From a virus: a stretch of DNA of 32,547 nt. Below are positions 6,914 through 27,295 of the stretch, piece after piece. Each line of letters starts with the position of its first letter. The first letter of the stretch is position 1. The stretch covers positions 1-32,547 of IMG/VR virus record IMGVR_UViG_3300048912_000049; one strand, 5' to 3'. Position numbers and translations under genes: made by a program. The notes beneath the pieces were generated by a model, which was not told the origin of the DNA, made no database searches, and was given only the letters and a program-made list of their open reading frames with translations.

Positions 6914-8041
6914 TTACATTGTAATCTCAATATCCTTTAACCTTTCAGCTGTCTTCTTTGCATTCTGTACGTGGTACACCTTAAACATAATCTTAGGGTC
7001 TTTCCATCCTCCACTGGTCATTAGTTCCTGCATATCCATATGCTCAGAGAGCATTGATTGAGATGTACGTCTACTATCGTGGAACGTTTTTCCTTTCAAC
7101 CCAATCCGATCTCTATACACTCGAAATAATGTATCTTTTGATGAAGGGGTTAGATTAAAAATAGTTTCCTTATTTCGAGGAATATCTAATGCCAGTTTAT
7201 AAAGTTCAATAGCATTCTTAACAAGAACAACATGTCGTGCTTCCCCTGTCTTAGATATCTCTTTAGGTATCCATAGGAGTCCTGCCTCCAAATCAACATT
7301 GTTTGGTGTATTAAGTAATATCTCCTGAGATCGTTGCATAGTACAAAGACCAATCTTAAAAGCTAAAGCAACTTCTTGAATTCGTTTTTGAGGAACAGTT
7401 CCATCAACATAACTGAGTTCTTTACAGAGCAAATCGACCTCTTCCTTTGTCCACACACTATCACGAGGAGGACTATCATCGGGCTTAGGTACAACACCTT
7501 TAAGTGGATGACGTTTTATCCAACGCCAACCCATCGGCATAGCTCTGGTAAATATGCTAGAAAGGAGTGTATGGTACTTTCGGATACTGGCATCTTTGAT
7601 CTGTCTCTTACCAAAGCGGCGATCATCAATCCAGTCAAAGAATGGGCTGTACTCGTCTGAGTCAAGTGGGAGGTCGGCGTAGTATTCCAATTCACTCAAC
7701 AACCAATCACCCATTTTCTTGCCACGCATCATCTCATTACGGAGGTATTCAATCTCTCCGACACGTTTACGATAGTTGCGTTTGGTGCGGTCAAGTTCCT
7801 TCTCAATGTACGCATCCATTAAGTCACCCAGCGTTCGAGTGCTTCTAATGGGTACTGTTGGATTCTTTGGAGAACCGTGTTTACCATCAAGAATTTCTTG
7901 TTCAAGAATTGCAGCAGCACGCTCAGCGGCTTTCGATGTATCTCGGGTGACAGATTTGCGGATACCGTTGACGTAGACCTCGCAGCGATAGCTGACGATC
8001 TTGCCAAGTCGGTTAGTAATTTCTCGTGGTTTAGATGCCAT
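6914..8041 (-). CDS. int: Tyrosine site-specific recombinase (integrase)
   Basis: This 375-residue protein has the usual phage integrase length and layout: an N-terminal arm-type DNA-binding segment (YRCEVYVNGIRKSV), a SAM-like core-binding domain (about 75-185) and a catalytic domain. Catalytic residues are visible: R237 (in TMQRSQEIL), the beta-hairpin K in ISKTGEARHV, H321-x-x-R324 (FHDSRRT), W346 (GGWKDP, in place of the more usual H) and Y356. All are present, so it should be active in integrating the phage at an attB site. It faces away from a repeat-rich region (8063-8302), as integrases often face attP. The phage is therefore probably temperate. Confidence 0.9.
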   Translation of the reverse strand: MASKPREITNRLGKIVSYRCEVYVNGIRKSVTRDTSKAAERAAAILEQEILDGKHGSPKNPTVPIRSTRTLGDLMDAYIEKELDRTKRNYRKRVGEIEYLRNEMMRGKKMGDWLLSELEYYADLPLDSDEYSPFFDWIDDRRFGKRQIKDASIRKYHTLLSSIFTRAMPMGWRWIKRHPLKGVVPKPDDSPPRDSVWTKEEVDLLCKELSYVDGTVPQKRIQEVALAFKIGLCTMQRSQEILLNTPNNVDLEAGLLWIPKEISKTGEARHVVLVKNAIELYKLALDIPRNKETIFNLTPSSKDTLFRVYRDRIGLKGKTFHDSRRTSQSMLSEHMDMQELMTSGGWKDPKIMFKVYHVQNAKKTAERLKDIEITM

Positions 8042-9063: not shown

Positions 9064-9140
9064 GGGCCAGTAGCTTAGCCGGTCAAAGCAATCCGCTCAT
9101 AACGGATAGATAGTGAGTTCGAGTCTCACATGGCCCACCA
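9064..9140 (+). tRNA. tRNA with CAU anticodon (Met or Ile2)
   Basis: This 77-base cloverleaf has acceptor GGGCCAG with ATGGCCC, a discriminator A and an encoded CCA. The D-arm is GCTTAGCCGGTCAAAGC, the anticodon arm is ATCCG-CTCATAA-CGGAT (anticodon CAT), and the T-arm is GTGAG-TTCGAGT-CTCAC. The 7th acceptor pair is G-A, a mismatch. CAU can be elongator Met or, with lysidine, Ile for AUA. The sequence alone does not decide it. Confidence 0.85.
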
Positions 9141-9148
9141 ATCAAACT

Positions 9149-9225
9149 CTCCCTGTAGCTCAGTAGGACAGAGCAGCGAGCTTCTACCTCGTAGGTCGGC
9201 GGTTCGATTCCGTCCGGGGAGGCCA
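9149..9225 (+). tRNA. tRNA-Arg (UCU anticodon)
   Basis: The 77-base cloverleaf has acceptor CTCCCTG with CGGGGAG, a discriminator G and CCA encoded. The D-arm is GCTC/GAGC, the anticodon arm GCGAG-CTTCTAC-CTCGT (anticodon TCT, reading AGA/AGG) and the T-arm GGCGG-TTCGATT-CCGTC. Rare AGA decoding is commonly supplied by phages. It lies eight bases after the CAU tRNA in the same transcript. Confidence 0.9.
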
Positions 9226-10180: not shown

Positions 10181-10243
10181 TTGGAAGCCTTCAGCAAACA
10201 CTAACATTTGACTTCTAATCAAACCACGTTAAGTGCTTCCAGT
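10181..10243 (+). ncRNA. Y-RNA-like element 1 (ACAGCAAAC family)
   Basis: TTGGAAGC (10181-10188) pairs with GCTTCCAG (10235-10242). The inner strand continues with TCAGCAAAC at 10191-10199, one base off the family motif ACAGCAAAC. The interior is short and has no tRNA-like part. It lies between the stop at 10175 and the next start at 10263, so it could be an RNA of its own or a leader structure. Confidence 0.65.
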
Positions 10244-10262
10244 TAATTAAGAGGAAAGATCA

Positions 10263-10880
10263 ATGACATTGCTCGAACAAATCAAAGCAAACTTGGCAGC
10301 AGATCGTAAGAGCGCCAACAGAAGTTCAATCAGCATTCATACAGTGATTATTGGCGAATGCGAACGTGTCCATAAAGACCTGAACGATGAAGGTGTAATC
10401 AGAGTCTTGAAGAAGCTTCTTAAAGATACAAAAGATGCTTTAAGTTACTTCAAGAGTCCTATTGCAGTAGAGGCAGCAGAGTTTGAGATTAAAGTGATTG
10501 AGTCTTATCTTCCTAAACAACTCACTGAGTATGAGATAAAGAATCAAGTTTCAGTTGCTCGTTCTCTCGGTTGTAATGATGTTGGAGCAATCATGGGTTT
10601 CTTTAAGAAGCAACATAGTGGCCGGTACGATGGAGCACTTGTGAGTAAGTATGCAAAAGGCTTCACCCTTATTGAGCTGTTGATAGGTACTGCCATAATT
10701 GGAATTGTTGGCGTTATCTTTGTTGGTGCAGTCAAAGGAACTCAGGATAACAACCTGACATACGGCATTAATGGTTTTGTGGAAACACGTTGTATCAGTG
10801 GATATCAGTTTACGGTTGGTGAGCGAGGCCATGTTCATCAAATCTATGATGAGAATGGCCGAGGATTGCCTTGTAAGTAA
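10263..10880 (+). CDS. YqeY-like protein fused to a prepilin-type segment
   Basis: The 205-residue product has two recognisable parts. Residues 1-132 resemble the YqeY/GatB-associated family (EFEIKVIESYLPKQLTEYEI, then GAIMGFFKKQHSGRYDGALVS); this family has a putative role in tRNA-dependent amidation. Immediately after, GFTLIELLIGTAIIGIVGVI is a textbook type IV prepilin N-terminus: G at -1, F at +1, E at +5, then a hydrophobic helix. The tail (GFVETRCISGYQFTV ... GRGLPCK) has two cysteines as in minor pilins. The frame is continuous. An internal GTG at 10641 with GGAG five bases upstream could make the pilin part alone. It follows Y-like element 1. Confidence 0.7.
   Translation: MTLLEQIKANLAADRKSANRSSISIHTVIIGECERVHKDLNDEGVIRVLKKLLKDTKDALSYFKSPIAVEAAEFEIKVIESYLPKQLTEYEIKNQVSVARSLGCNDVGAIMGFFKKQHSGRYDGALVSKYAKGFTLIELLIGTAIIGIVGVIFVGAVKGTQDNNLTYGINGFVETRCISGYQFTVGERGHVHQIYDENGRGLPCK
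10641..10880 (+). other. Possible internal start giving a separate prepilin-like protein
   Basis: In frame with the fusion gene, GTG 10641 is preceded by GGAG at 10632-10635. Starting here would give about 79 residues beginning M-S-K-Y-A-K-G then FTLIELL, a short basic leader cut by prepilin peptidase after G. This is exactly the form of a free type IV prepilin. Whether it is used is not shown by sequence. Confidence 0.4.
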
Positions 10881-11152: not shown

Positions 11153-11292
11153 TTTTGCATCCTTACAGCAAACAATCTTCTATCCATGTGGAGGACGTAG
11201 GGTTGGTTCGAATCCAACCTCCCCGGTCTAGCGGGGAGTAGTGTAGTGGTAGCACGCGTAAAGAGATGGTGGTAATCCACTAAGGATGCAGT
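11153..11292 (+). ncRNA. Y-RNA-like element 2 with permuted tRNA mimic
   Basis: TTGCATCC (11155-11162) pairs with GGATGCAG (11284-11291), and ACAGCAAAC stands at 11165-11173. The interior reads in permuted tRNA order. T-arm GTTGG-TTCGAAT-CCAAC (11202-11218) is followed directly by CTCCCCG (11219-11225), a 6-base loop and CGGGGAG (11232-11238), a 7-bp acceptor stem. Then come TA at 11239-11240 (positions 8-9 of a tRNA) and D-arm GTGT-AGTGGTA-GCAC (11241-11255) with the GG of a D-loop. There is no anticodon. A GTGG/CCAC hairpin follows. It is the layout described for bacterial YrlA-type Y RNAs. Confidence 0.75.
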
Positions 11293-11296
11293 AGTT

Positions 11297-11385
11297 TGGC
11301 CCGAATAGCGCGTAAGTCTTTGTTGTTAGCTTACCGGCAACAATAAAGCGCCGAAAACGTATTCGATGAAAGGTCGAAAGGGCAG
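11297..11385 (+). ncRNA. Structured RNA with pseudoknot
   Basis: Nested pairings by eye: GCCC (11299-11302) with GGGC (11380-11383), CGAATA (11302-11307) with TATTCG (11360-11365) and GCGC (11308-11311) with GCGC (11348-11351). Inside this are two crossing helices, GTAAG (11312) with CTTAC (11330) and TTGTTG (11320) with CAACAA (11338), which would form an H-type pseudoknot. It sits between Y-like elements 2 and 3 without any gene, and I recognise no RNA family. Confidence 0.5.
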
Positions 11386-11390
11386 ATTAT

Positions 11391-11516
11391 TTTTGGATGA
11401 CTACAGCAAACAAACAGCCTATTAAGCCGTGGGTCGTAGGTTCGAGTCCTGCCTCCGTAACTGTAATCGGTACGGTGTAGCTCAGTTGGTAGAGCAACGT
11501 AAATGTTCATCCAGTT
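11391..11516 (+). ncRNA. Y-RNA-like element 3 with permuted tRNA mimic
   Basis: TTGGATGA (11393-11400) pairs with TCATCCAG (11507-11514). ACAGCAAAC is at 11403-11411. The interior again has T-arm GTAGG-TTCGAGT-CCTGC (11436-11452), acceptor CTCCGTA (11453-11459) with TACGGTG (11471-11477; one U-U mismatch), TA, and D-arm GCTC-AGTTGGTA-GAGC (11480-11495). The acceptor loop is 11 bases. Without an anticodon arm it is not a real tRNA. It stands 43 bases before the vWA gene start. Confidence 0.72.
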
Positions 11517-11558
11517 AACCTAAACATAAATTTAAATAGAGAGAAGCAAAGAAGGGAA

Positions 11559-12854
11559 ATGAAGAATTATATTGGTTTAGTAAATGATCATTCTGGTTCA
11601 ATGAGTCATTTGGCAAAAGCAGCAGCAAGTGATTACAACACAAACATCACTGCAATCAAAGATGCAGCAAGTCGTGAGATGTTGGATACCGTAGTTTCTG
11701 TGGTTGGTATTGGCCTCAGTAACAATGGTCATGGTGTGGTACGTCAAGTTCAAATCTCCAATCCGCATGTATTGAAACCTATTCAATCATGGCCGACTCC
11801 CGGTGGTACTCCTTTATGGGATGGTGTTGGTGAAATGATTGAATTGTTTGAATCCTTACCGGATGCAAATTCTCCTGATGTGTCGTTTCTTGTGATCACG
11901 ACGACTGATGGTGAGGAGATGCATTCAACTCGATACACACGCTATTCATTGGCTGCGAAGATTCAATCATTGCAACAATCTGGTCGTTGGACATTTGTGT
12001 TCCGCGTACCGAAGGGTAATCGTAATTCCCTGAATGGTCTTGGTGTTCCTATCGATAACATCCAAGAGTGGGAAACAACTGCAACGGGTATTGCAAAATC
12101 AACCGTAGCAACAACTCAGGCAATGGATAACTACTTCACTACACGTTCTGCTGGTGCTCGTTCATCGAATGCCTTTTATGCAAATGCGAGTTCAGTGAAT
12201 ACATCTGCATTGAAAGATATCAGCAGTGATGTTTCGTTATACATCGTAGCGGATAGTCAAATGGGTATGGAGATTCGTGAATTTATTCTGACGAAACGTA
12301 TGGAATATTTAAAAGGATCAGCGTTCTACCAATTGACTAAGACTGAAGCACGAGTACAACACGATAAATTGATTATTGTTCGTGACCGTACCACTGGTGC
12401 TTTCTATGCCGGTAAAGCCGCTCGTGGAATGATTGGTTTACCAACAGACCGTAATGCACGTCTACATCCCGATGATCATGGCAACTTTGATATTTTCATT
12501 CAAAGTAAAAGCGTCAATCGTAAATTGGTTGCTGGAACAGGCGTCGTATATTGGGCTGCAATTGGTACGCCATTTACTGAAGCTGATCTTGAATATCTGA
12601 AGCCGAAGGTTGCGAATGGTGTTGTGCAGTTGCCTACTGTGGCTCCGACGAATCGACCAACCCCGAGTCCGATTCCGAAGAAAGTTGCCGTGAAGATGTC
12701 CTCGGCGGCTAGTATTAATGGTCGTCCAGTGAAGTGTTTCCGTACTCGTGACGAAGCTCGCGACTACGCTCGTCCACTAGGGAAGGTTGTTAAAGACATT
12801 AACGAATTCAGTTCAGTTTTTAACGCCACAGGCCGTTGGTTCGTATTTATTTAA
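11559..12854 (+). CDS. vWA-domain protein (phage family)
   Basis: The 431-residue protein begins with a von Willebrand factor A domain. The MIDAS motif D-H-S-G-S at residues 10-14 is followed by a T in GGTPLWDG (about residue 85) and a D in TTTDGEE (about 116), so the metal site is complete. A second domain follows from about residue 230 (FILTKRMEYLKGSAFYQLTK, later IIVRDRTTGAFYAGKAARG and FIQSKSVNRKLVAG). It looks like a domain for binding a ligand, perhaps RNA, but I recognise no name. ATG 11559 is preceded by AGAGAGAAGCAAAGAAGGG. It stands among Y-like RNAs and is a candidate partner of the Ro60-like protein, which also has a vWA domain. Confidence 0.7.
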   Translation: MKNYIGLVNDHSGSMSHLAKAAASDYNTNITAIKDAASREMLDTVVSVVGIGLSNNGHGVVRQVQISNPHVLKPIQSWPTPGGTPLWDGVGEMIELFESLPDANSPDVSFLVITTTDGEEMHSTRYTRYSLAAKIQSLQQSGRWTFVFRVPKGNRNSLNGLGVPIDNIQEWETTATGIAKSTVATTQAMDNYFTTRSAGARSSNAFYANASSVNTSALKDISSDVSLYIVADSQMGMEIREFILTKRMEYLKGSAFYQLTKTEARVQHDKLIIVRDRTTGAFYAGKAARGMIGLPTDRNARLHPDDHGNFDIFIQSKSVNRKLVAGTGVVYWAAIGTPFTEADLEYLKPKVANGVVQLPTVAPTNRPTPSPIPKKVAVKMSSAASINGRPVKCFRTRDEARDYARPLGKVVKDINEFSSVFNATGRWFVFI

Positions 12855-12913: not shown

Positions 12914-12984
12914 TTTTGGAAGCGTACAGCAAACCCTTTAAACATTTGGTCAAAAACTGAAAACGTTGAAAAGGCTTCCAGTTA
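12914..12984 (+). ncRNA. Y-RNA-like element 4
   Basis: TTGGAAGC (12916-12923) pairs with GCTTCCAG (12974-12981), with ACAGCAAAC at 12926-12934. The interior is about 50 bases, AT-rich, with no tRNA-like arms. It begins some 13 bases after the -10 box of promoter 4, so a transcript starting there would begin almost with this element. Confidence 0.68.
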
Positions 12985-12986
12985 GT

Positions 12987-13108
12987 TTTGTAGTAGGCAC
13001 AAAGGCTGATCTATTAAAGCCAACTGTGTGGGTAGGAATATTTGGGACTTACGCTCGTAAGTAATAGGTTATGAAAGGAAGATAACCCAGCCAACCCATT
13101 ACTACAAA
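12987..13108 (+). ncRNA. Large structured RNA A, next to Y-like element 4
   Basis: TTTGTAGTA (12987-12995) pairs with TACTACAAA (13100-13108). Inside are GGCT/AGCC, ACTTACG-CT-CGTAAGT and GGTTAT/ATAACC hairpins, so it looks like a multi-branch RNA of about 120 bases. It has no start codon or reading frame. I know no family for it. A similar-sized structure follows element 5 (13743-13866). Confidence 0.5.
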
Positions 13109-13231: not shown

Positions 13232-13672
13232 ATGTCAAATGGTGAAATGTTAAATCGAATGCTAGTGCTTGCAACAAACGCTCACGCTGGCCAGTTTGAT
13301 AAAGGTGGTAAACCCTACATTCTCCACCCTTTAAAGGTTATGCACATGCTTAGATCAGATGATGAGGAGCTGAATTGCATTGCTCTTGGTCACGATCTTA
13401 TTGAAGATACAAAGATAGCTATTAGCGAACTCCATACAAATTTTAGTGATCGCATCGTAAAAGGGATTGCTAATTTAACAAAGTTCAAAGGAGAGTCATA
13501 CGAGAAGTACATCGACAATATTCTACGGAATAGAGATGCTATTCAAGTAAAGATGTGTGATTTACGACATAACTCAGATTTGCGTCGTCTGAGAGGAGTT
13601 ACACAGAAAGACCTTGAAAGGGTGGGGCGTTACTGCGCTTTCTACAAAGTGTTGGAAGAAGCCCTTAAATAG
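13232..13672 (+). CDS. HD-domain (MESH1/RelA-SpoT-like) hydrolase
   Basis: The 146-residue single-domain protein has motifs of the MESH1/SpoT hydrolase family. These are AGQFDKGGKPYILHPLKV (first His, H32), HDLIEDT (H54-D55, then E58-D59) and VKMCDLRHNSDLRRL (Asp). These ligate the manganese ion that hydrolyses (p)ppGpp or related nucleotides. Length agrees with small alarmone hydrolases. A phage enzyme of this type could remove the stringent signal during infection, which is an inference. It is in one unit with the Ro60-like gene, after promoter 4, and is followed at once by Y-like element 5. Confidence 0.75.
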   Translation: MSNGEMLNRMLVLATNAHAGQFDKGGKPYILHPLKVMHMLRSDDEELNCIALGHDLIEDTKIAISELHTNFSDRIVKGIANLTKFKGESYEKYIDNILRNRDAIQVKMCDLRHNSDLRRLRGVTQKDLERVGRYCAFYKVLEEALK

Positions 13673-13737
13673 TTTTGGATCATTACAGCAAACAAAAACG
13701 CTAACCATTGTCTCTAGCGAGAAAGTTGATCCAGTTG
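13673..13737 (+). ncRNA. Y-RNA-like element 5
   Basis: TTGGATC (13675-13681) pairs with GATCCAG (13728-13734). ACAGCAAAC is at 13685-13693. Inside is a small hairpin CGCTA (13699-13703) with TAGCG (13715-13719). It begins directly after the stop of the HD gene at 13672. No tRNA-like part is present. Confidence 0.68.
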
Positions 13738-13742
13738 ATTTA

Positions 13743-13866
13743 GTAGTGACACGGGCCGCATAAAAGTTGTACACGGCTTGCACGGTGACGACAGTGACCT
13801 GGAAAGTAAAGCGAAGGGTGCTCTGTGAGCAAGGCATCACCATTAGCGTTTGGATACTGTCACTAC
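13743..13866 (+). ncRNA. Large structured RNA B, next to Y-like element 5
   Basis: GTAGTGACA (13743-13751) pairs exactly with TGTCACTAC (13858-13866). Inside are GCCG/CGGC, GGTGA/TCACC and TGCTC-TGT-GAGCA hairpins. It is 124 bases, about the size of structured RNA A, and like it begins within 10 bases of the end of a Y-like element, with a shared AGTAG start. I recognise no RNA family and no reading frame. Confidence 0.5.
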
Positions 13867-13871
13867 ATCTA

Positions 13872-13958
13872 ATTTGAATGAGTACAGCAACTAAACCGGG
13901 TTAAAGACGAGGGCATTAACGCCCAAGTCGAGTGGGTTCAAGCCCCACACCATTCAGT
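13872..13958 (+). ncRNA. Y-RNA-like element 6, in the leader of the Ro60-like gene
   Basis: TTGAATG (13874-13880) pairs with CATTCAG (13951-13957). The motif is ACAGCAACTAAAC here, a variant of ACAGCAAAC starting at 13884. It holds GGGC/GCCC (13911/13921) and a T-arm, GTGGG-TTCAAGC-CCCAC (13932-13948), but no D-arm or acceptor loop. Its 3' strand ends 17 bases before ATG 13975, so it overlaps the leader and could serve feedback control by the protein. It may be a degenerate copy. Confidence 0.6.
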
Positions 13959-13974: not shown

Positions 13975-15375
13975 ATGAGTAAATTAGTGAAAGCAATACA
14001 ATCGAATAACAATGTCACCGCTACCACAAATGGTATGAAGGCATATAAAACAGCAGGCTCCGCAATCGTTGACTTATTTGGATCAATTGGTTCAAGCCGA
14101 GGTAACGATCTTGCACCGATGTTCTATGCAGCAGTGAGTGAGGATCAAGACCTTGCCTATCGAGTGTTGCAATACGCTCGTGACATCCGTGGTGGCATGG
14201 GTGAGCGTGAAATGTTCCGGGCAATTCTTAAAAAGATTGCCATCGTTGATTACGAATTAGCAGTACGCCTCTTGCCAAAAATTCCGGTGATTGGTCGTTG
14301 GGATGATGTATTGGTACTGCTCTGGACGCCGGCCGAAAGAGAGGCCATAGAACTGATTAGGGAAGCTTTGGAGCAACGTAACGGTCTATGCGCTAAATGG
14401 ATGCCACGCAAGGGTAATGAGGCTGCAAAGCTTATACAGACGCTTGGATGGTCATTGAAGTTCTACCGGAAGACCGTAGTAGGCGCAAGCAACACAGTTG
14501 AACAATTGATGTGTGCTAACAAGTGGAATGATATTGAGTTTAGTAAAGTTCCATCAGTAGCTTCAGCTCGATACCAGAAAGCATTTGGGCGTCGTGCTCC
14601 AGAGCGTTATTCCGCATACCTTGCTGCACTTGAAAAAGGTGAAACCAAGATCAATGCGGGTGCAGTGTATCCATATGATGTTCTGAAGTCGGTACTTCTC
14701 GGTAATGCACGAGTTGCTGATCAACAGTGGAAAGCACTTCCTGACTACATGCCTGAAGGTGTGAATATCCTTCCTGTGATTGATGTATCAAGTTCGATGC
14801 ACTGTCCTATCGGTGGTTCTAAGGGCGTGGGAATGGATTGTATGCATATGGCTATCAGCTTAGGTATGTATTTGTCCGAACGTAACAAAGGTATTTTCAA
14901 AGATGCCTTCATCACGTTCCATAATCATCCTGAGTTGAGAGTGATGCATTCTCCAAACCTCTCTGGTCGATACAGTGAGGTTAAGAGTAGTCCGTGGGGC
15001 GGAAGTACGAATTTACTGTCTTCATTTAAATTGATTCTGGATGCAGCCGTAACAAATAAATTAGATCAGGAAGATTTACCAACACACTTGGTGATCTTGT
15101 CAGACATGCAATTCAATTCAGCTTGTCATTCAGGCGACAGTGCTGTCGAAGCAGCCCGAAGAATGTTTACGGAAGCTGGATACACATGCCCGCAACTGAT
15201 CTTCTGGAATCTGAATGCAATGTATGACAACACGCCCGTCAAAGTTAATGATGAAGGTGTTGCATTGGTCAGTGGATTCAGTCCAGCAATTATGAAAAGT
15301 GTAATGGCGAGTAAGGTGATCAGTCCTTTGGATATGATTAAAGAATTAGTTTGTATTGAACGGTACGATTGGTAA
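13975..15375 (+). CDS. DUF2828/TROVE-like protein with vWA domain (Ro60-like)
   Basis: This 466-residue protein has a helical repeat N-terminal half with YARDIRGGMGEREMF near residue 66, then PVIGRWDDVLVLL, the pattern of the DUF2828 and TROVE families. From about residue 264 a vWA domain begins. D270-V-S-S-S is the MIDAS motif, with T in WGGSTNLL and D in LSDMQF as further ligands. The end (QLIFWNLNA, SGFSPAIM) is typical for DUF2828. Ro60/TROVE proteins bind Y RNAs and misfolded RNAs in a ring of HEAT-like repeats. I take this as the RNA-binding partner of the six Y-like elements. ATG 13975 follows GAGAGAGAAAAC. A GTG at 13957 would lie in element 6. Confidence 0.85.
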   Translation: MSKLVKAIQSNNNVTATTNGMKAYKTAGSAIVDLFGSIGSSRGNDLAPMFYAAVSEDQDLAYRVLQYARDIRGGMGEREMFRAILKKIAIVDYELAVRLLPKIPVIGRWDDVLVLLWTPAEREAIELIREALEQRNGLCAKWMPRKGNEAAKLIQTLGWSLKFYRKTVVGASNTVEQLMCANKWNDIEFSKVPSVASARYQKAFGRRAPERYSAYLAALEKGETKINAGAVYPYDVLKSVLLGNARVADQQWKALPDYMPEGVNILPVIDVSSSMHCPIGGSKGVGMDCMHMAISLGMYLSERNKGIFKDAFITFHNHPELRVMHSPNLSGRYSEVKSSPWGGSTNLLSSFKLILDAAVTNKLDQEDLPTHLVILSDMQFNSACHSGDSAVEAARRMFTEAGYTCPQLIFWNLNAMYDNTPVKVNDEGVALVSGFSPAIMKSVMASKVISPLDMIKELVCIERYDW

Positions 15376-15831: not shown

Positions 15832-17028
15832 ATGTTTAAACAGAAAGGTGCAGTATCAATTGGGGCAATTATCGGAGTAGTTATTGGTCTGGTAATTACA
15901 TACAGCGCATTCTCATGTTTCGAGAATGTAGACGCTAATGAAATTCTGGTTACTCAGAATGTATTTAGTGGTGAACGTGAAGTTTACACGCAACCCGGTA
16001 TGCGTTTTGTTGGATTTAACAAAGTCACGTCATATCAGAAACGAGCTGAATATGTATTCGATGTTATTGACGGTACTGATTACGGCAAGAAGCTACAGTT
16101 TAATGACGGTGGTCATGGGATTCTCTATGGCAAAGTCCAATGGGAAATGCCTCTTGATAAAGAGTCAATCCTAAAGCTGGATACTGCATATCATTCACAG
16201 AATGCAATTGCACAGAAAGTGGTTGGCCAAACTCTCGATAGCTCGATCTATCTCTCTGGTCCTCTAATGAGTTCTACAGAGTCTGCTGCTGAGCGTCGTG
16301 GTGAGCTTGTACAGATCATTGATGATCAAGCTGCAAAAGGTATCTATGCAACTCGTGTTGTGGAGAAGACCGTTGTTGATGCCCTGACAAATGCATCGAA
16401 GACTGCCACTGTAACGGAAATCATCCGTGATGCTGCTGGTCTTCCGAAGCGTCAACAAGGTTCGATGATTGAGCAGTATGGTGTCCACCTTCTTCCAATG
16501 AATGTTCGTGCTCTTGATTACGAGGAACGAGTTCAGAAGCAGATTCAGACACGACAAGATGCAATCACCAGTGTACAGACAGCAATTGCTCAAGCTAAAC
16601 GTGCTGAACAAGATGCAATTACATCTGCCAAGCAAGGTGAAGCAGATGCTGCTAAAGCAAAATGGGTACAAGAAACCATTAACGCTAAAGAGATTGCATT
16701 GCAAGAGAAGGATTTGAAAGTCTCTGAGCTGAAAGCTAAACAGGCTGAACAGTATAAGCGTGAGCAGACTTTGATCGGTGAAGGTAATGCTGCAAAGATG
16801 GCTGCTGAGATGCAAGCTAACGGCGCTCTTGATCAGAAGTTGCAAGCTTATGTAGAAGTGAATCGTTTGTGGTCATCTGCATTCGCTAACTTCAAAGGTT
16901 CATTGGTTCCGGCCTACGTCGCTGGTGGTAGTGGCGGTAATGGTGTTAATCAAGTACAAGATTTTATGCAACTTCAGACAATGAAAGCTGCAAAAGATTT
17001 GGGTGTTGATGTTGGTGTTCGAAAGTAA
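15832..17028 (+). CDS. SPFH/band-7 (prohibitin-like) membrane protein
   Basis: The 398-residue protein begins with one transmembrane segment (GAIIGVVIGLVITYSAFSCF, about 11-30), then an SPFH domain (YTQPGMRFVGFNKVTSYQKR, later GGHGILYGKVQWEMP). A long alanine/glutamine-rich coiled coil (about residues 232-325) and a flexible glycine-rich tail follow. It resembles stomatin/prohibitin-like proteins, which oligomerise on the inner membrane as scaffolds. Phage-borne ones are known, but their role is unclear. The ribosome binding site is GAGAGGAAGG. It is the last gene in the Ro60-like unit, before a terminator. Confidence 0.8.
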   Translation: MFKQKGAVSIGAIIGVVIGLVITYSAFSCFENVDANEILVTQNVFSGEREVYTQPGMRFVGFNKVTSYQKRAEYVFDVIDGTDYGKKLQFNDGGHGILYGKVQWEMPLDKESILKLDTAYHSQNAIAQKVVGQTLDSSIYLSGPLMSSTESAAERRGELVQIIDDQAAKGIYATRVVEKTVVDALTNASKTATVTEIIRDAAGLPKRQQGSMIEQYGVHLLPMNVRALDYEERVQKQIQTRQDAITSVQTAIAQAKRAEQDAITSAKQGEADAAKAKWVQETINAKEIALQEKDLKVSELKAKQAEQYKREQTLIGEGNAAKMAAEMQANGALDQKLQAYVEVNRLWSSAFANFKGSLVPAYVAGGSGGNGVNQVQDFMQLQTMKAAKDLGVDVGVRK

Positions 17029-18300: not shown

Positions 18301-20049
18301 TTGGCAGAGGTAGATCATAAAGAAGGCTGTCCCCGCTGCATTAAAAATGGAAGAGATAACAGTAGAGATAATCTAATTGTCTACAAAGATGATGGAGGAG
18401 CTTTCTGTTTTTCTTGTGGGTATACAGTAAAAAGCAAATCAATTGAAGATGAAAAAGAGGAGGACTTATTCCTAGAGTCTATGGCAGTTTTTACAGATGA
18501 AGATTTACAGAAGTTAAAAGATAATACAACAACGGACGGCTCTGATTACCGATGTATACGTGATGACATTTACGCATACTTCAGAGTTAGACACGAATAC
18601 GACACAGAATCTCTTGACCTTGTTAAGCAGTTTTATCCGAACACGAAAGGCGGCGAGCTGTGTGGGTACAAAGTAAGAGCACTCCCTAAAGAGTTTTATT
18701 CGTTAGGTACAAATAGTTCTACCACTGACTTGTTCGGTCAGTTTCGGTTTCTCAAAACAACATCTAATTGGTGCTTAATCGTCGGTGGTGAGATTGATCA
18801 ACTCAGCGCATATCAAATGCTGGTTGACTATCAAGCATCGAGAGGCAGTGACTTTGCTCCAATTGCCGTGGTGAGTCCGACTGTTGGTGAAACCAGTGCA
18901 GCTAAGCAGTTGCAACACCATTATGAATGGTTCAGCCGATTTGAGAAGATTATTCTCTGTTTTGATAACGATGCCCCAGGTAGGGATGCAACGGAAAAAG
19001 CAGTGAAGGTTTTACCTAAAGGTAAAGTATTCATTCTTGAGATGGAAAGAAAAGACCCGAATGAATATCTAGAGTCCGGTAGAGAAAAAGAATTTATCAA
19101 TGCATTTTTCAAAGCTCGGCAATATGCTCCAGCGGGGATATTAGGCTCAGATCGGCTACGAGATCGAATCATTGAACACGTAAGAACACCGAAGATTCCA
19201 CTTCCGCCATTCCTGAAAAAGCTTATGGAGATGACAGCAGGAGGAATACCTCTTGGTGTAATCGTGAATATAGGCGCAGCGTCTGGTGTAGGTAAAACAT
19301 CCATTGTTAATGAGATGACTTATTACTGGATTTTTAATAGTCCACACCGTATCGGGGTTGTTTCGTTAGAGTTGGATGCAGGCCAGTATGGTGAAGCGAT
19401 GTTATCTCGTCATGTTGGTGTCAAAATTCCTTTAATTTCTGATCCAGAAAAGAAACTCGCGTTCCTGGAGCGAGAGGATATTTTTCAGAAGTCGATTGAA
19501 TTCTTTGAGCATGAAGATGGTAGCCCGCGTTGGCACGTAGTCGATGACAGAGATGGTAGTCTCACAACGATAAAAGCAGTCATCGAGAATTTAGTAGTTG
19601 CTTGTGATTGTCGTGTAATTATTATCGACCCGCTCCAAGATTTGTTGGATGGCTTGAGCAATGAAGAACAGTCGTTATTTATGAAGTGGCAAAAGTCCGT
19701 AGTTAAGAGTCACGGAATAACTTTCATCAATATCAACCACGTTCGTAAATCAGGCGTTGGTGGGCAGCAGAACTCTCAAGGTGCTTTTATCACTGAAGAA
19801 GATTTCGCGGGGAGTTCTACGATCTTTAAATCAGCAGCAGGTAATTTTCTCTTTATGAGGAATAAGTATGCTGAAGATGAATTCGAAAGAAATACAGTAA
19901 AGTGTGTAGCAAGTAAAATTCGATGGACAGGTAATACAGGTCCAGCGGGTGAGGCTTATTACGACAATCAGACCCATACCCTGTGGGAGAAAGAAGAGTA
20001 CATGCGAGAGCACGGTATCGTGCTAGATGATAATGAGAGTAGTAATTGA
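18301..20049 (+). CDS. Bifunctional DNA primase-helicase (T7 gp4-like)
   Basis: The 582-residue protein has the full layout of T7 gene 4. A zinc ribbon comes first (CPRC at residues 10-13, CFSC near 39), then a TOPRIM primase domain with E164 (VGGEID) and D222-x-D224 (CFDNDAPG). A RecA-type helicase follows with Walker A GASGVGKT-like motif ending K332-T333, Walker B (VIIIDPLQDL) and the sensor H in NINHVRKS. It unwinds DNA at the fork and makes primers for the polymerase encoded next. The start is a TTG at 18301 after AGGGGG; no ATG would keep the zinc ribbon. It overlaps the polymerase by 17 bases. Confidence 0.9.
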   Translation: MAEVDHKEGCPRCIKNGRDNSRDNLIVYKDDGGAFCFSCGYTVKSKSIEDEKEEDLFLESMAVFTDEDLQKLKDNTTTDGSDYRCIRDDIYAYFRVRHEYDTESLDLVKQFYPNTKGGELCGYKVRALPKEFYSLGTNSSTTDLFGQFRFLKTTSNWCLIVGGEIDQLSAYQMLVDYQASRGSDFAPIAVVSPTVGETSAAKQLQHHYEWFSRFEKIILCFDNDAPGRDATEKAVKVLPKGKVFILEMERKDPNEYLESGREKEFINAFFKARQYAPAGILGSDRLRDRIIEHVRTPKIPLPPFLKKLMEMTAGGIPLGVIVNIGAASGVGKTSIVNEMTYYWIFNSPHRIGVVSLELDAGQYGEAMLSRHVGVKIPLISDPEKKLAFLEREDIFQKSIEFFEHEDGSPRWHVVDDRDGSLTTIKAVIENLVVACDCRVIIIDPLQDLLDGLSNEEQSLFMKWQKSVVKSHGITFININHVRKSGVGGQQNSQGAFITEEDFAGSSTIFKSAAGNFLFMRNKYAEDEFERNTVKCVASKIRWTGNTGPAGEAYYDNQTHTLWEKEEYMREHGIVLDDNESSN

Positions 20050-21719
20050 TATCGAGGCAACGGGCCTCCTGAATAGTTCTTCAATTGATTATTCAACAAT
20101 ACCGTACAAACTGAAGTCCACTTTTAAAGTTCATTGTATCGTTGTAAAAGATATTGATACGGGAGAGTTTTATAAATTCTACGAAGAGACTCTAAAGGAT
20201 TTTCCAGAGTTCTCTGAAAGATTCACTTTAATGATTCTCCACAATGGTATCAGTTATGACTTGAGAGTTCTCCAACTCTATTATGGGTTGGACTACAAAA
20301 TCACAAGTACGGAAGATTGGTTCAACGCTAGAAAAATTACTATCGTTGATACGTTGGTGCTCAGTAAGTTGCTCAACCCTGATCGCGGTGGTCACAGCCT
20401 AAAGTGGTGGGGAAGTGAGTTAAAGTTCTCAAAAGGAAATATAACAACTGACGAGGACGGCGAAGATATTCCTGATGTTTGGGAAGAGTTTTCACTCCCT
20501 ATGCTTGAATATTGCGAACGAGATGTCGAGCTTACTCATAAAGTCTATGATGCGTTAACGGTTGAGGCATTTGGTGCTGATTGGCGAGAAGCACACAGAT
20601 TGGAGAAGTTTGTTGCTTACTATATTAATTTGTATTCACATTATGGGTTCAAATTTGATCGTGATTTAGCACTAGATAACCTTGATGAACTTGATGAGTG
20701 GATATCAAAAATTGAGGTGGACGTGGAAAAACGTTTACCAAAATGCAAAATGAATAAAGGAGAATCTGACGTATTTATTCCTCCCAAGATTCAGTTCAAG
20801 AAGAACAAGGAAATGTCAGCAAATATGCTGAAGTTCTTGGAGAAACATGACGGTAAAGTAATAGACAATAAGACTGTAGCTGTTTTCGGTAAGACATGGG
20901 AACTACCTATCCCACAAGAACCGATGGTCACAGAAAAACAAATGACCTTAAAAGACCAAATACAACTGAAGCAGTGGTTGTGTAGCCTAGGTTGGGTGGC
21001 ATCGGTTTGGAAGGATAGAGATTTAACATGCAAGAGTGGTACTAAGCAAAAAGTTGATAGGGATAAATTTCTTGAGGCTTATCAGAAATGGAGAGACAAG
21101 ATTGTTGATACTCCATATGAATCACTGATTCTTGATGAGCTTGAAGTTGGAAGTATTGCGGAGCTTGACCATAAGATTTCCACGCATGAGATTAGAAGAC
21201 CGTTCAAGGTTCCAACAAATCCCAGTTATGTAAAAAATCAGGAAAAGGATATTTGTGACAACCTACTAGCTCTAGGTGAAAAAGTTGATTTTGTTTCTGA
21301 TATCGTCAAGTACCTTACCTATAAACATAGGCGAAGTAGCATCAGTGGAAGTGATGAGGAAAAAGGTTGGCTAAATAATACTAGGCTAGATGTTGATGGA
21401 AGAATACCGACTCCAGCGGATACTGTTGGAACGAATACATACCGCTTTCGACATATTGATGTTTGTAATATCCCAAGGGTTTCATCTCTTTACGGAGAGA
21501 ATATTCGTGGGATGTTTTGTGTAGATAGTCATCAATACCAAATTGGTTACGATGGTAGTGGTTTGGAAGCTCGTGTGCAGGGGCACTTTATTTTTAATAA
21601 ACAAGGTGGACCAGAGTTCGCGAAATTACTTCTGCAAAATAAGCCTAATGATATTCACACTGTTACGGCAAGAAATCTAAATATTCCTAGAGATATTGCA
21701 AAAAATATTCGCTATGCGT
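20033..21719 (+). CDS. Family A DNA polymerase, exon 1 (3'-5' exonuclease and start of palm)
   Basis: The exonuclease motifs are clear: DIEATGL (D-x-E), HNGISYDL and YCERDVELTH (Y-x-x-x-D). The palm begins with motif A, YDGSGLEARVQGHF. Reading on, motif B breaks off after RDIAKNIRYAL; the frame runs into a stop at 21775. A group I intron explains this. Spliced to 22424, the sequence reads RYAL-MYGAT, which completes motif B. The start is either 20027 or ATG 20033 (MRVVIDIEATG); I prefer the latter. A hairpin, AGCACG-GTAT-CGTGCT (20009-20024), stands right before the start and could limit translation. Its frame overlaps the end of the primase-helicase gene. Confidence 0.9.
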
Positions 21720-22423
21720 TGACATTAACAGCGCATATAAAATTGTGTGAACTCAGTGGAACTCTAATCACGTAATGGTGAAGACAATACTGAGCCAAGC
21801 TAAGTAGTCAATTGCACAGAAATAGGTGTGCAAGATGTATCAAAGTGGTAACAAACAACAAGAGGAAATGACAGCAATACCTTCTAAGTATCCACAAGGA
21901 TTCTTTAAAGATAAACCCTGTCGATTATGTGGGACTGTATTTAGTCCATTAGCTCCGTCACATTTATACTGTAAGCAGGAATGTGCTGATGAAGCTTTTA
22001 CAAGGAATCACCTCAGGAAGACTTATAATTTATCTCTTGAGCAGTTCCATTACATTTATGAAAAGCAAAATGGGCTTTGTGCAATATGTAAGAAGGAGGG
22101 CTTCCAATTAAGTACACACCAGAAGTTTAAGATCGTGGTTGACCATTGTCATACAACTGGCGTTGTTCGTGGAATGCTTTGCCATAACTGCAATAGAGCA
22201 CTTGGTCTGTTTCAAGATAATGTTGAAAGTTTAAAAACCGCAATTGATTATTTAGAAGGTGCAACGACTATCCCCATCGGGGAGTACATTCCAAGCAATC
22301 GGGAATGGAAGCGCACAACACGTAATCGAAAGAAGCGTGATGATATAGTCTGCTCTGCATAGAAATATGCAGCAGCTTGAATAAAGCGGAGAGGGGCGTA
22401 GCGACACCTCTTGAACACAAAGG
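21720..22423 (+). mobile_element. Group I intron in the DNA polymerase gene, with HNH gene
   Basis: The exon end TATGCGT (21713-21719) pairs with GCGCATA (21731-21737) with a U-G wobble at the splice site: the P1 helix. CATTA (21723-21727) pairs with TAATG, the start of exon 2 (22424): P10. The last base is G (22423), as required. P7 is GACTAT (22266-22271) with ATAGTC (22345-22350), P7.1 is CCCC/GGGG next to it, and P9 is CTGCATA (22355) with TATGCAG (22366). The 3' core resembles the T4 td intron. It is inserted in motif B of the polymerase. Confidence 0.88.
21835..22362 (+). CDS. HNH homing endonuclease in the intron (Endo VII-like)
   Basis: The product has about 175 residues. It has an N-terminal zinc finger (CRLCGTVFSPLAPS ... 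YCKQEC) and a C-terminal HNH domain of the recombination endonuclease VII type: KTYNLSLEQFHYIYEKQ, CAICKKEG, then DHCHTTGVVRGMLCHNCN and LGLFQDN. These hold a zinc ion and the catalytic metal. Such enzymes cut intron-less alleles and spread the intron. The start is uncertain: GTG 21826, ATG 21835 or ATG 21868 (after AGAGGAA). The first two lie in a hairpin (TTGCACA/TGTGCAA) that could block translation. Its last 30 codons also form the ribozyme core. Confidence 0.85.
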   Translation: MYQSGNKQQEEMTAIPSKYPQGFFKDKPCRLCGTVFSPLAPSHLYCKQECADEAFTRNHLRKTYNLSLEQFHYIYEKQNGLCAICKKEGFQLSTHQKFKIVVDHCHTTGVVRGMLCHNCNRALGLFQDNVESLKTAIDYLEGATTIPIGEYIPSNREWKRTTRNRKKRDDIVCSA

Positions 22424-23049
22424 TAATGTATGGAGCAACGTGGGGAAAAATCAAGAAGATGCTTGGTATCAGTGAAACTGCTGCGCAAAAACTTTTTGAT
22501 GATTTTTGGAATGATTCCTTACCACTAAAGCAGTTGAAGGAGGAGTACGAGAGATTCTGGCAGGACAAGAATAGAGGTAAAAAGAAATTCATTTATGGAA
22601 TTGATGGAAGGCGACTTACAACGCGATCAAAACATAGCTTAATCAACACTCTGTTCCAAAGCACAGGGGTCATCGTGATGAAGAGAGCCATGATGTTTCA
22701 TATTGAATGGTTGGAAGTAGAGGGCCTTATTGGTAATCCTTTCAATGAGGACATCAATAACAAACCTTGTGCTTTACAAATGATCCATTACCACGATGAA
22801 GCTCAATGGGCAGTTCATAGGAGCCTTGTTGAATTTAAGAAGTTTTCTTCTGAAAAAGAAGCAGAAGAGTTTGATGATGGAAGAATATGGTCTTCGCCAA
22901 GTGAATTCAAAGGTTCATGGTGGAGAATGTATTCAAGAGTAGGTGAACTAGCCACGCTTGCAGTTAGGAAGGCGGGAGAGTTTTATAAATTAAATGTAGC
23001 ACTGGATAGCGAATATGTTATTGGCTTGAATTGGGCTATGTGTCACTAA
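22424..23049 (+). CDS. Family A DNA polymerase, exon 2 (fingers, motif C)
   Basis: The spliced frame begins within the codon for L (last base T of exon 1 plus TA), then MYGATWGKIKKML, the second half of motif B. Motif C is HYHDEAQWAVH with the catalytic D-E. With exon 1 it makes about 770 residues, in the range of T7-type and related phage polymerases. Unspliced, the piece would begin with a TTG in the intron and lack the exonuclease. That is the alternative I reject, since P1 and P10 agree with splicing. It is the replicative polymerase of the phage. Confidence 0.88.
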
Positions 23050-25966: not shown

Positions 25967-26529
25967 CCACATTACCTTGGGAAATTCCCGGTGTACCGTG
26001 GAAAACTGAATCAGCATTTTGGGGATGGGTGAGAGGAGTTTTGCGAAAAGGGTGGTCAGTTCATCCTGTAAAGATTGAGTTTATTAAACAAAACAGAAAG
26101 CGAATTGTAAATCCAAAGAAAGGTCATCGTAACAAAGAAGAAATATGGGGAATGACCTGCGCGATATGCAATGTTGATCATCCCCAAGCAGATATTGAAA
26201 TAGATCATAAAAACGCGGCTTCTTCTTTGCGTTGCTTAGAGGATTTACAAGGTTTCTGTCAGCGATTGTTCTTCGTATGCTTCAGCGACCTACAACCCGT
26301 CTGTAAGCCCTGCCACAAGATTATCTCGTATTCGCAGAAGCAAGGTATGTCTTTTGAAGAGGCTGCTTTAGAGAAGCGTGTAATTGAGTTATGTAAGCTT
26401 CCAGCTCAAGGTCAATATGATTGGCTGTGTGAACATGCTCCGGGCCATCTTGGTTTTCCATCAAAAATGAATGCTAAGCAGAGAAGAGAAGCAATTAAGA
26501 AAACATTGAAAGAGAGTAAAATTGAGTAA
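25963..26529 (+). CDS. HNH endonuclease
   Basis: The 188-residue protein has a C-x2-C pair (CAIC) followed by HPQADIEIDHKNAAS and, further on, LQPVCKPCHKIIS. This is the H-N-H layout: D-H metal site, the central N/C region and a C-x2-C/H pair. It lies between exonuclease and phosphoesterase, as a freestanding HNH enzyme does in several T7-like and marine podophages. It may process replication intermediates or act as a homing enzyme. The C-terminal part (MNAKQRREAIKKTLKESK) is basic and may bind DNA. Confidence 0.75.
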   Translation: MTTLPWEIPGVPWKTESAFWGWVRGVLRKGWSVHPVKIEFIKQNRKRIVNPKKGHRNKEEIWGMTCAICNVDHPQADIEIDHKNAASSLRCLEDLQGFCQRLFFVCFSDLQPVCKPCHKIISYSQKQGMSFEEAALEKRVIELCKLPAQGQYDWLCEHAPGHLGFPSKMNAKQRREAIKKTLKESKIE

Positions 26530-27295
26530 GAGAATATTGATTATACCGGATACACAATGTAAACCGGGAGTTGACCTAAGTCATCTTGAGTATGCAGGCA
26601 AGTACATAGTCGATAAACGGCCTGATGTGATTGTTCACCTTGGTGATCATTGGGATTTTGAAAGCTTGAGTTCTTACGATAAAGGTAAGCTCAGTGCTGA
26701 AGGTAGAAGATATGCTGCTGACCTCGATGCTGGTGAGCGTGGTATGTCAATGCTGTTATCACCACTATGGGAATTGCAGACGAAGCAAATTCTTGATCGA
26801 AAGAAAGTTTATCGACCACGATTAGTTTTCTGCAAAGGCAACCATGAAGATCGTGCAGATCGTGTTGCAAAAATGAATCCAGAATTTGCAGGGTTTATTA
26901 GCAGCGATAATCTAGGGCTTGAGAAGTTAGGTTGGGAAGTTTATGACTTTCTAAAGCCTGTGGAAATTGAAGGTATCTTCTTTGTCCACTTCTTAGCAAA
27001 TCCAATGTCAAATAAACCTTATGCTGGTTCTGCATTAAATGTATTGAAGACAGTTGGTAGAAGCTTTGTTGTCGGCCATCGTCAAGTGCTTGACCTCGCA
27101 ATCAGACCAACAATTGATGGTAAACATCAAATCGGTATCGTTGCAGGTGCTTTCTATCAACACGATGAATCGTACAAAGGACCAACAGGTAATAACCACT
27201 GGCGCGGGGTAGTAATGCTGAATGAAGTTCAAGATGGTTATGGTGATCCAATGCCCGTATCTATCAGCTATCTCAAGAGGAAGTATGGCGGATGA
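26522..27295 (+). CDS. Calcineurin-like metallophosphoesterase
   Basis: The 257-residue protein has the phosphoesterase motifs in order: PDTQ near residue 9 (in place of D-x-H), GDHWDF near residue 41, GNHEDR near 106 and VGHRQ near 187. Together they hold the two metal ions. The DxH motif is D-x-Q here, as in some phage relatives. It could be a nuclease or phosphatase, and phages of the SIO1/VpV262 kind have a similar gene near their replication genes. The start is a TTG, overlapping the HNH gene by 8 bases. Confidence 0.8.
   Translation: MSKRILIIPDTQCKPGVDLSHLEYAGKYIVDKRPDVIVHLGDHWDFESLSSYDKGKLSAEGRRYAADLDAGERGMSMLLSPLWELQTKQILDRKKVYRPRLVFCKGNHEDRADRVAKMNPEFAGFISSDNLGLEKLGWEVYDFLKPVEIEGIFFVHFLANPMSNKPYAGSALNVLKTVGRSFVVGHRQVLDLAIRPTIDGKHQIGIVAGAFYQHDESYKGPTGNNHWRGVVMLNEVQDGYGDPMPVSISYLKRKYGG

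Follow-up and report, generated by a model that had tools for sequence, protein, structure and literature searches.

What is a nearly whole tRNA, with its parts in the wrong order, doing close to the gene for a Ro-like protein in the genome of a virus? The IMG/VR virus record IMGVR_UViG_3300048912_000049 (32,547 bases in all, referred to here as the window, whose positions serve as coordinates) holds such a sequence, which we call element 3. The first-pass annotation had read in it the order T-arm, acceptor stem, UA, D-arm, and had regarded it and a second permuted element (element 2) as independent examples of that order. The order in element 3 was borne out both by the sequence and by R1, a covariance model built from 32 relatives (alignment A3) with the window excluded. 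We conclude, with a probability of roughly 0.8, that element 3 encodes a small Y-RNA-like transcript belonging to a phage Ro ribonucleoprotein. Its tRNA body is enclosed by a closing module, which consists of a stem of about six pairs with ACAGCAA or TCAGCAA just inside the 5' strand and N-GUU or N-GUA after the 3' strand. The parts are:

11395-11517, plus strand: element 3, a Y-RNA-like region with a circularly permuted tRNA body (held-out model R1, 87.6 bits, E 3.1e-19)
11395-11409, plus strand: 5' half of the closing module (GGATGA at 11395-11400, ACAGCAA at 11403-11409), enriched and covarying near DUF2828 genes
11414-11435, plus strand: anticodon-arm remnant and variable loop GGGTC in tRNA register (sequence; biases in 74 relatives)
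11436-11452, plus strand: T-arm GTAGG/CCTGC with one G-U pair (sequence, Rfam YrlA alignment, R1)
11453-11477, plus strand: acceptor-like stem CTCCGTA (11453-11459)/TACGGTG (11471-11477) around an 11-base loop (11460-11470) (sequence, R1; 7 of 7 pairs covary in relatives)
11478-11495, plus strand: UA (TA at 11478-11479) and D-arm GCTC/GAGC (11480-11495) (sequence, R1)
11507-11517, plus strand: 3' half of the closing module, TCATCC-A-GTTA (TCATCC at 11507-11512, then A-GTTAA) (sequence, R1)

The stem sequences and the 11-base loop are those given earlier, but the acceptor stem forms only six of its seven pairs, with U-U at position 2, and an anticodon arm had been overlooked. The 22 bases 5' of the T-stem read, in tRNA register, as ACAGC-CTATTAA-GCCGT (27-43) followed by GGGTC (44-48). 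The arm is degenerate (4 of 5 pairs, one A-C mismatch), with C32, U33, A37 and A38 present; in the same register, the 74 relatives are biased to these four bases and to G46 and U47. Since the anticodon arm and variable loop precede the T-stem, it is nearly the whole tRNA that is permuted, and the cut lies near the anticodon arm. Judged by sequence, the T-loop and D-loop hold bases that are tRNA-type modification targets. No CCA was found in the acceptor loop of either permuted element of the window. ARAGORN and the Rfam tRNA model made no call at element 3, their only calls in the window being 9064-9140 and 9149-9225, and promoter and terminator scans around the element gave about shuffle level.

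Alignment A3 comprises 32 of 45 elements, the 13 that were long, partial or irregular having been omitted. Across it, 92.4% of cells were paired as against 64.3% after shuffling, and the covariation score was 0.739 as against 0.191 for shuffled and 0.09-0.19 for slid versions. Because members were picked for a paired acceptor and closing stem, and because the search itself set the columns of ACAGCAA, TAGCTC and the T-arm core, the percentage paired is inflated; the variety of pair types is stronger evidence. Changes on both sides were seen in all six closing-stem pairs and all seven acceptor pairs, and RNAalifold recovered the closing stem, T-arm, acceptor and D-arm unaided. A scan of IMG/VR with the module heptamer, then the T-arm and TAGCTC, found at least 120 stretches, compared with 28 for a scrambled heptamer. 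A strict finder returned 74 non-redundant matches; the window and L001 (the same virus as the window) are missing from this set, apparently through its 80% redundancy filter, and 21 of the 74 have four or fewer acceptor pairs, some being ordinary-order forms or tandem tRNAs, and were counted anyway. In a fixed register, the acceptor strands of the 74 were paired in 80% of cells, and in 45% when strands were swapped between elements. Relatives thus keep the pairing by compensatory change, where mere decay of the sequence would have spoken against the earlier reading, and the permuted order is more than chance: it is real and conserved. The two elements of the window do not establish this as independent examples; they are members of one widespread family with a YrlA-type order.

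The presumed partner is encoded 2.5 kb downstream of element 3:

13975-15375, plus strand: Ro-like protein of the DUF2828/DUF7788 families, with a predicted TROVE plus vWA fold (Pfam, AlphaFold, structure match)

That this neighbour is Ro-like had been proposed before, and the predicted fold agrees. The AlphaFold model (mean predicted local distance difference test score 82) matched Xenopus Ro60 with RNA (1yvp) at Z 21.5, with a root-mean-square deviation of 3.9 over 410 of 466 residues; Z was 15.4 to the Ro60 of Thermus phage phiLo (9l5y) and 14.2 to Deinococcus Rsr (2nvo), while unrelated vWA proteins matched at 9.4 and below. By sequence, the DUF2828 profile reached TROVE proteins in the PDB (E 0.0037), and the residues D270, S272 and S274 of the metal-ion-dependent adhesion site were invariant in 15 of 15 sequences. 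As modelled, the protein has both the TROVE ring and a vWA domain with this site.

We examined 87 loci with a DUF2828 gene, made up of the window, six phage records and 80 viral contigs. On the coding strand, 125 copies of the closing module were counted, and 16 on the opposite strand, whereas six scrambled heptamers gave 2-7, and at least one closing-module element was found in 66 of the 87 loci. In a fixed register, the closing stem was paired in 75% of cells in 37 elements (50% when swapped) and in 68% in 131 elements (49% when swapped). Reverse scans used the RNA motif alone and no information on the protein. Among the matches listed, a DUF2828-family gene was found at 48 of 120 viral motif loci, as against 1 of 28 controls; in bacterial and archaeal species genomes it was found at 63 of 95 motif loci, and at 34 of 41 with a strict permuted element. 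Some of these genome loci come from assemblies that bear the labels Treponema, Akkermansia, Lachnospiraceae and Mycolicibacterium. Mycobacteriophage genes annotated as 'Ro-like RNA binding protein' are homologues of the DUF2828 protein, and mycobacteriophage Krypton555 has the same module, with a permuted mimic 0.1 kb downstream of its Ro-like gene (L209:9545-9675). Element 3, like Y RNAs as a class, has a Ro protein gene close by.

Five intergenic elements between 10.2 and 14.0 kb of the window share the closing module, and a sixth, at 13875, is imperfect. Besides element 3, these are:

10183-10246, plus strand: element 1, the closing module around a lone anticodon stem-loop TTTGA-CTTCTAA-TCAAA (10207-10223, anticodon UCU)
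11157-11294, plus strand: element 2, the other permuted mimic, with T-arm 11202-11218, acceptor 11219-11238 and D-arm 11241-11255 (R1 58.2 bits, E 5.3e-12; fold z -3.80)
12918-12984, plus strand: short element with the same closing module (R1 26.5 bits)
13677-13737, plus strand: short element with the same closing module (R1 24.1 bits)
13875-13957, plus strand: possible sixth element, T-arm GTGGGTTCAAGCCCCAC beside an imperfect closing stem (fold z -2.57; no call by the strict detector)

The UCU anticodon of element 1 matches the phage's own tRNA-Arg (9149-9225). Element 2 is not proven by its score alone, because a tandem-tRNA junction in locus L077 scores alike (58.3 bits); its closing stem, its perfect 7-bp acceptor and its fold z carry it. 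Two strict permuted elements were seen in only 3 of the 48 loci having any, but several handle RNAs are common, with at least two elements in 73 of the 125 loci that have any. Three module-free intergenic stretches between the elements, each with its own closing stem, may be other RNAs that do without ACAGCAA (12990-13107, fold z -2.32; 13736-13872, -0.93; 11290-11392, -2.25).

What hangs on the module varies. Of 365 module elements, 276 were non-redundant, and, with T-arms masked, 42 of these held a perfect stem-loop of the anticodon type (YUNNNAA loop on five pairs); dinucleotide shuffles gave a mean of 1.5 and a maximum of 6, and reverse complements gave none. About half of the 42 have no T-arm, and the commonest anticodons were UCU, UUU, GUA and GUU. 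By eye, short elements in L041, L006, L021 and L076 also show UUU, CUU and UGU loops, although only that in L041 passes the strict test. Elsewhere the cargo is a tRNA 3' half, or an ordinary-order tRNA in which the closing stem replaces the acceptor stem (L021, L041). In Cronobacter phage S13, two genes beside the DUF2828 gene, annotated as tRNA-Ser and tRNA-OTHER, are ordinary-order tRNAs that carry the module as an insertion close to the anticodon arm, where a short loop closes it. In all loci examined, 50 non-redundant candidates of this ordinary-order form were found, compared with 1, 0, 0 and 0 for scrambled heptamers; at least three of them (L077, L148, L175) look like chance or ordinary tRNAs, and the real pattern was looser than the scrambled ones. 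Ten of the 12 genome loci with the form also contain a DUF2828 gene. There is, then, one two-domain RNA in two topologies, ending either at the acceptor or at the module, and the permutation therefore has a simple meaning: the conserved feature is attachment of the tRNA body to the handle close to its anticodon end, and element 3 is the acceptor-sealed form. Beside phage Ro genes, some loci list a tRNA-Ser, a tRNA-OTHER or a pseudo tRNA (L206:9895-10138, L205:9891-10125); these look like tRNAs of ordinary order into which a Ro module has been inserted, so that the annotation is probably wrong.

In bacteria, Y RNAs gate Ro or serve to tether an exoribonuclease to it, and YrlA imitates tRNA; PMC12282133 gives part of this background. 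By analogy, the module of element 3 would bind Ro and the tRNA body would be a docking surface. We infer that element 3 is transcribed and that the DUF2828 Ro protein takes hold of a handle that consists of the closing stem, the ACAGCAA on the 5' side of that stem and the GUU that follows its 3' side. To this handle, the body (anticodon-arm remnant, T-arm, acceptor and D-arm) would be joined near the anticodon end. Because the RNA would end at the handle, the tRNA reads as circularly permuted, and a loop seals the acceptor end, so that the RNA could not be charged. Seated on the Ro ring, the mimic would serve as a docking surface or a gate; it may bring tRNA-handling enzymes or an exoribonuclease to Ro-bound RNA, or may occupy such enzymes during infection. 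The diversity of the displayed tRNA parts suggests that different partners are addressed, and the earlier idea that two mimics may serve two enzymes reaches no further than this. In PMC12282133, the Ro-like protein of Listeria phage CKA15 is reported from purified virions (20 peptides, 57.1% coverage), and the Ro-like gene of mycobacteriophage LeBron has been described as toxic on over-expression; both facts are compatible with docking and with a decoy alike.

Several observations weigh against a Y-RNA-like gene. The folding stability of element 3 is modest (z -1.73; 11 of 200 shuffles were as good). On a 461-base region, the Rfam YrlA model (RF02553) gave element 3 38.2 bits (E 5.8e-7), which misses its gathering cutoff of 69 bits, and gave element 2 22.6 bits; in a scan of 16 loci, no YrlA match exceeded the cutoff (best 45.9). 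No DUF2828 gene was present in the fetched stretch at 72 of the 120 viral motif loci among the matches listed. CKA15 has three abundant non-coding regions (PMC12282133); the one at 26,236-26,727, the most transcribed of those with printed coordinates, corresponds through an alignment with OR088597.1 to about 6487-6978 of L204. That is a different intergenic stretch from the one ahead of the Ro-like gene in which three module elements lie (7671-7926), and so does not demonstrate that module elements are transcribed. As the CAGCAA motif is absent from L204:6410-7070, the abundant RNA upstream of the CKA15 Ro-like gene is a different one. Only 8 of 86 loci reached 50 bits with R1, which makes the permuted mimic a minority among DUF2828 loci, and in two of the eight (L077 and L206) the matches include a junction of neighbouring tRNAs. 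Such junctions mimic the permuted order under R1, at 34.3 bits in the window and 58.3 in L077, and element 2 scores no higher. Could element 3 itself be functionless debris of a tandem array, the 3' half of one tRNA lying by the 5' half of the next? We consider this highly improbable, because the acceptor strands that pair in ACAGCAA loci do not do so in 16 tandem-tRNA controls (48% of cells, 46% when swapped), and because the closing stem and acceptor covary. On these two grounds, a tandem junction was rejected as the source of the order in element 3.

A permuted gene could also yield a working tRNA, if its transcript underwent processing at the acceptor loop and joining at the anticodon. The sequence holds nearly all of a tRNA, with an anticodon-like loop, and CCA, which could in any case be added after processing, occurs in the acceptor loop of 7 of 74 relatives. 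The tandem-tRNA controls have it more often (6 of 16), however, and the window elements have none; moreover, the anticodon stem is paired in 63% of cells as against 97-100% for the other helices, in 47 of 74 cases the loop is very short, at 3-8 bases, and sister RNAs have neither acceptor nor D-arm, all of which makes a true permuted tRNA gene very unlikely. It is hardly more credible that element 3 acts at the level of DNA or mRNA, as a processing site or an attenuator of the downstream vWA-like gene: it does end 41 bases before the start codon (11559) of that 431-aa gene, yet the elements of relatives sit up- or downstream of various genes and still track DUF2828. A live rival, since sister elements display anticodon arms, is that Ro shows tRNA parts as a decoy or bait, so that tRNA-cutting defence enzymes of the host attack them or are held. 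The sister anticodon stem-loops keep the C32-U33...A37-A38 grammar far beyond the shuffled level, and phage tRNAs that counter tRNA-targeting defences have been published (PMC10264068 and PMC11555353). Against this, the anticodon stem of element 3 itself is degenerate, and the same RNAs are found in bacterial genome assemblies, unexpected for a phage decoy unless these are prophages; we regard a decoy as unlikely for element 3, and prefer the Y-RNA-like gene.

Beyond element 3, it seems possible, though on the whole doubtful, that the handle RNAs of phage Ro proteins form a kit, in two circular permutations, aimed at host tRNA-cutting or tRNA-modifying enzymes as baits or recruiting handles. 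Its parts would be a sealed permuted body, a free-ended ordinary-order body, a 3' half and an anticodon arm with a particular anticodon. A common handle with defined tRNA parts beside a Ro gene, present across many phages and bacteria, links two old puzzles, phage tRNAs and phage Ro proteins. Its compact signature, GGNNNN..ACAGCAA / NNNNCC-N-GUU, lets such RNAs be located and annotated, several of them being currently filed as odd or pseudo tRNAs.

Among other genes of the window, an HD-domain protein (13232-13672) neighbours the Ro gene, and the 431-aa protein (11559-12854) has what we take, by eye, to be a vWA-like DxSxS motif. The protein at 15832-17028 resembles Band-7 by eye, and Krypton555 likewise encodes a Band-7-like protein close to its Ro gene. 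At 10263-10880, a YqeY-like protein is fused in frame to a match to the prokaryotic N-terminal methylation motif. In the region 20027-23049, the DNA polymerase frame halts at 21775 and a further open reading frame follows at 22411; the one between them, at 21826-22362, looks by eye like an HNH endonuclease, so that this may be an intron with a homing gene.

How does element 3 compare with known systems? In algae and archaea, permuted tRNA genes encode the 3' half of the tRNA ahead of the 5' half. Element 3 likewise has the 3' half first, but a CCA-free loop closes its acceptor and it ends at a handle stem, and its sequence gives no indication of a mature tRNA. The likeness to YrlA is closer: T-arm, acceptor, UA and D-arm align in the same order, and in both the permuted domain is enclosed by a stem, thought in YrlA to bind Ro. 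The Rfam consensus, in contrast, is without the ACAGCAA ... CC-N-GUU closing module. By the Rfam cutoff element 3 is not a YrlA member; it is probably a YrlA-like Y RNA with a different closing module. On the protein side, the predicted DUF2828 fold resembles Ro60 and Rsr (1yvp, 2i91, 2nvo; 9l5y), but identity is only 12-16%, and Pfam assigns DUF2828/DUF7788 and not TROVE. Non-coding RNAs near a mycobacteriophage Ro-like gene were reportedly proposed as Y RNAs by Chen et al. in 2014, and the closing module, new with respect to Rfam YrlA, may already stand in that work. The non-coding RNAs by the Ro-like gene of Listeria phage CKA15 are likewise proposed as Y RNAs in PMC12282133; further background is in PMC7765460, PMC7824862 and PMC13148394. 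Given its YrlA-like architecture and the earlier proposals of Y RNAs in phages, element 3 is of a known kind. In a limited library, to which the printed literature may add, we found no work on DUF2828 with phages, and none there describes permuted-tRNA or anticodon stem-loop Y RNAs in phages. Novelty is most likely in the second topology and in the anticodon arms that stand alone, and element 3 very probably belongs to a large, little-described RNA family of phages and bacteria.
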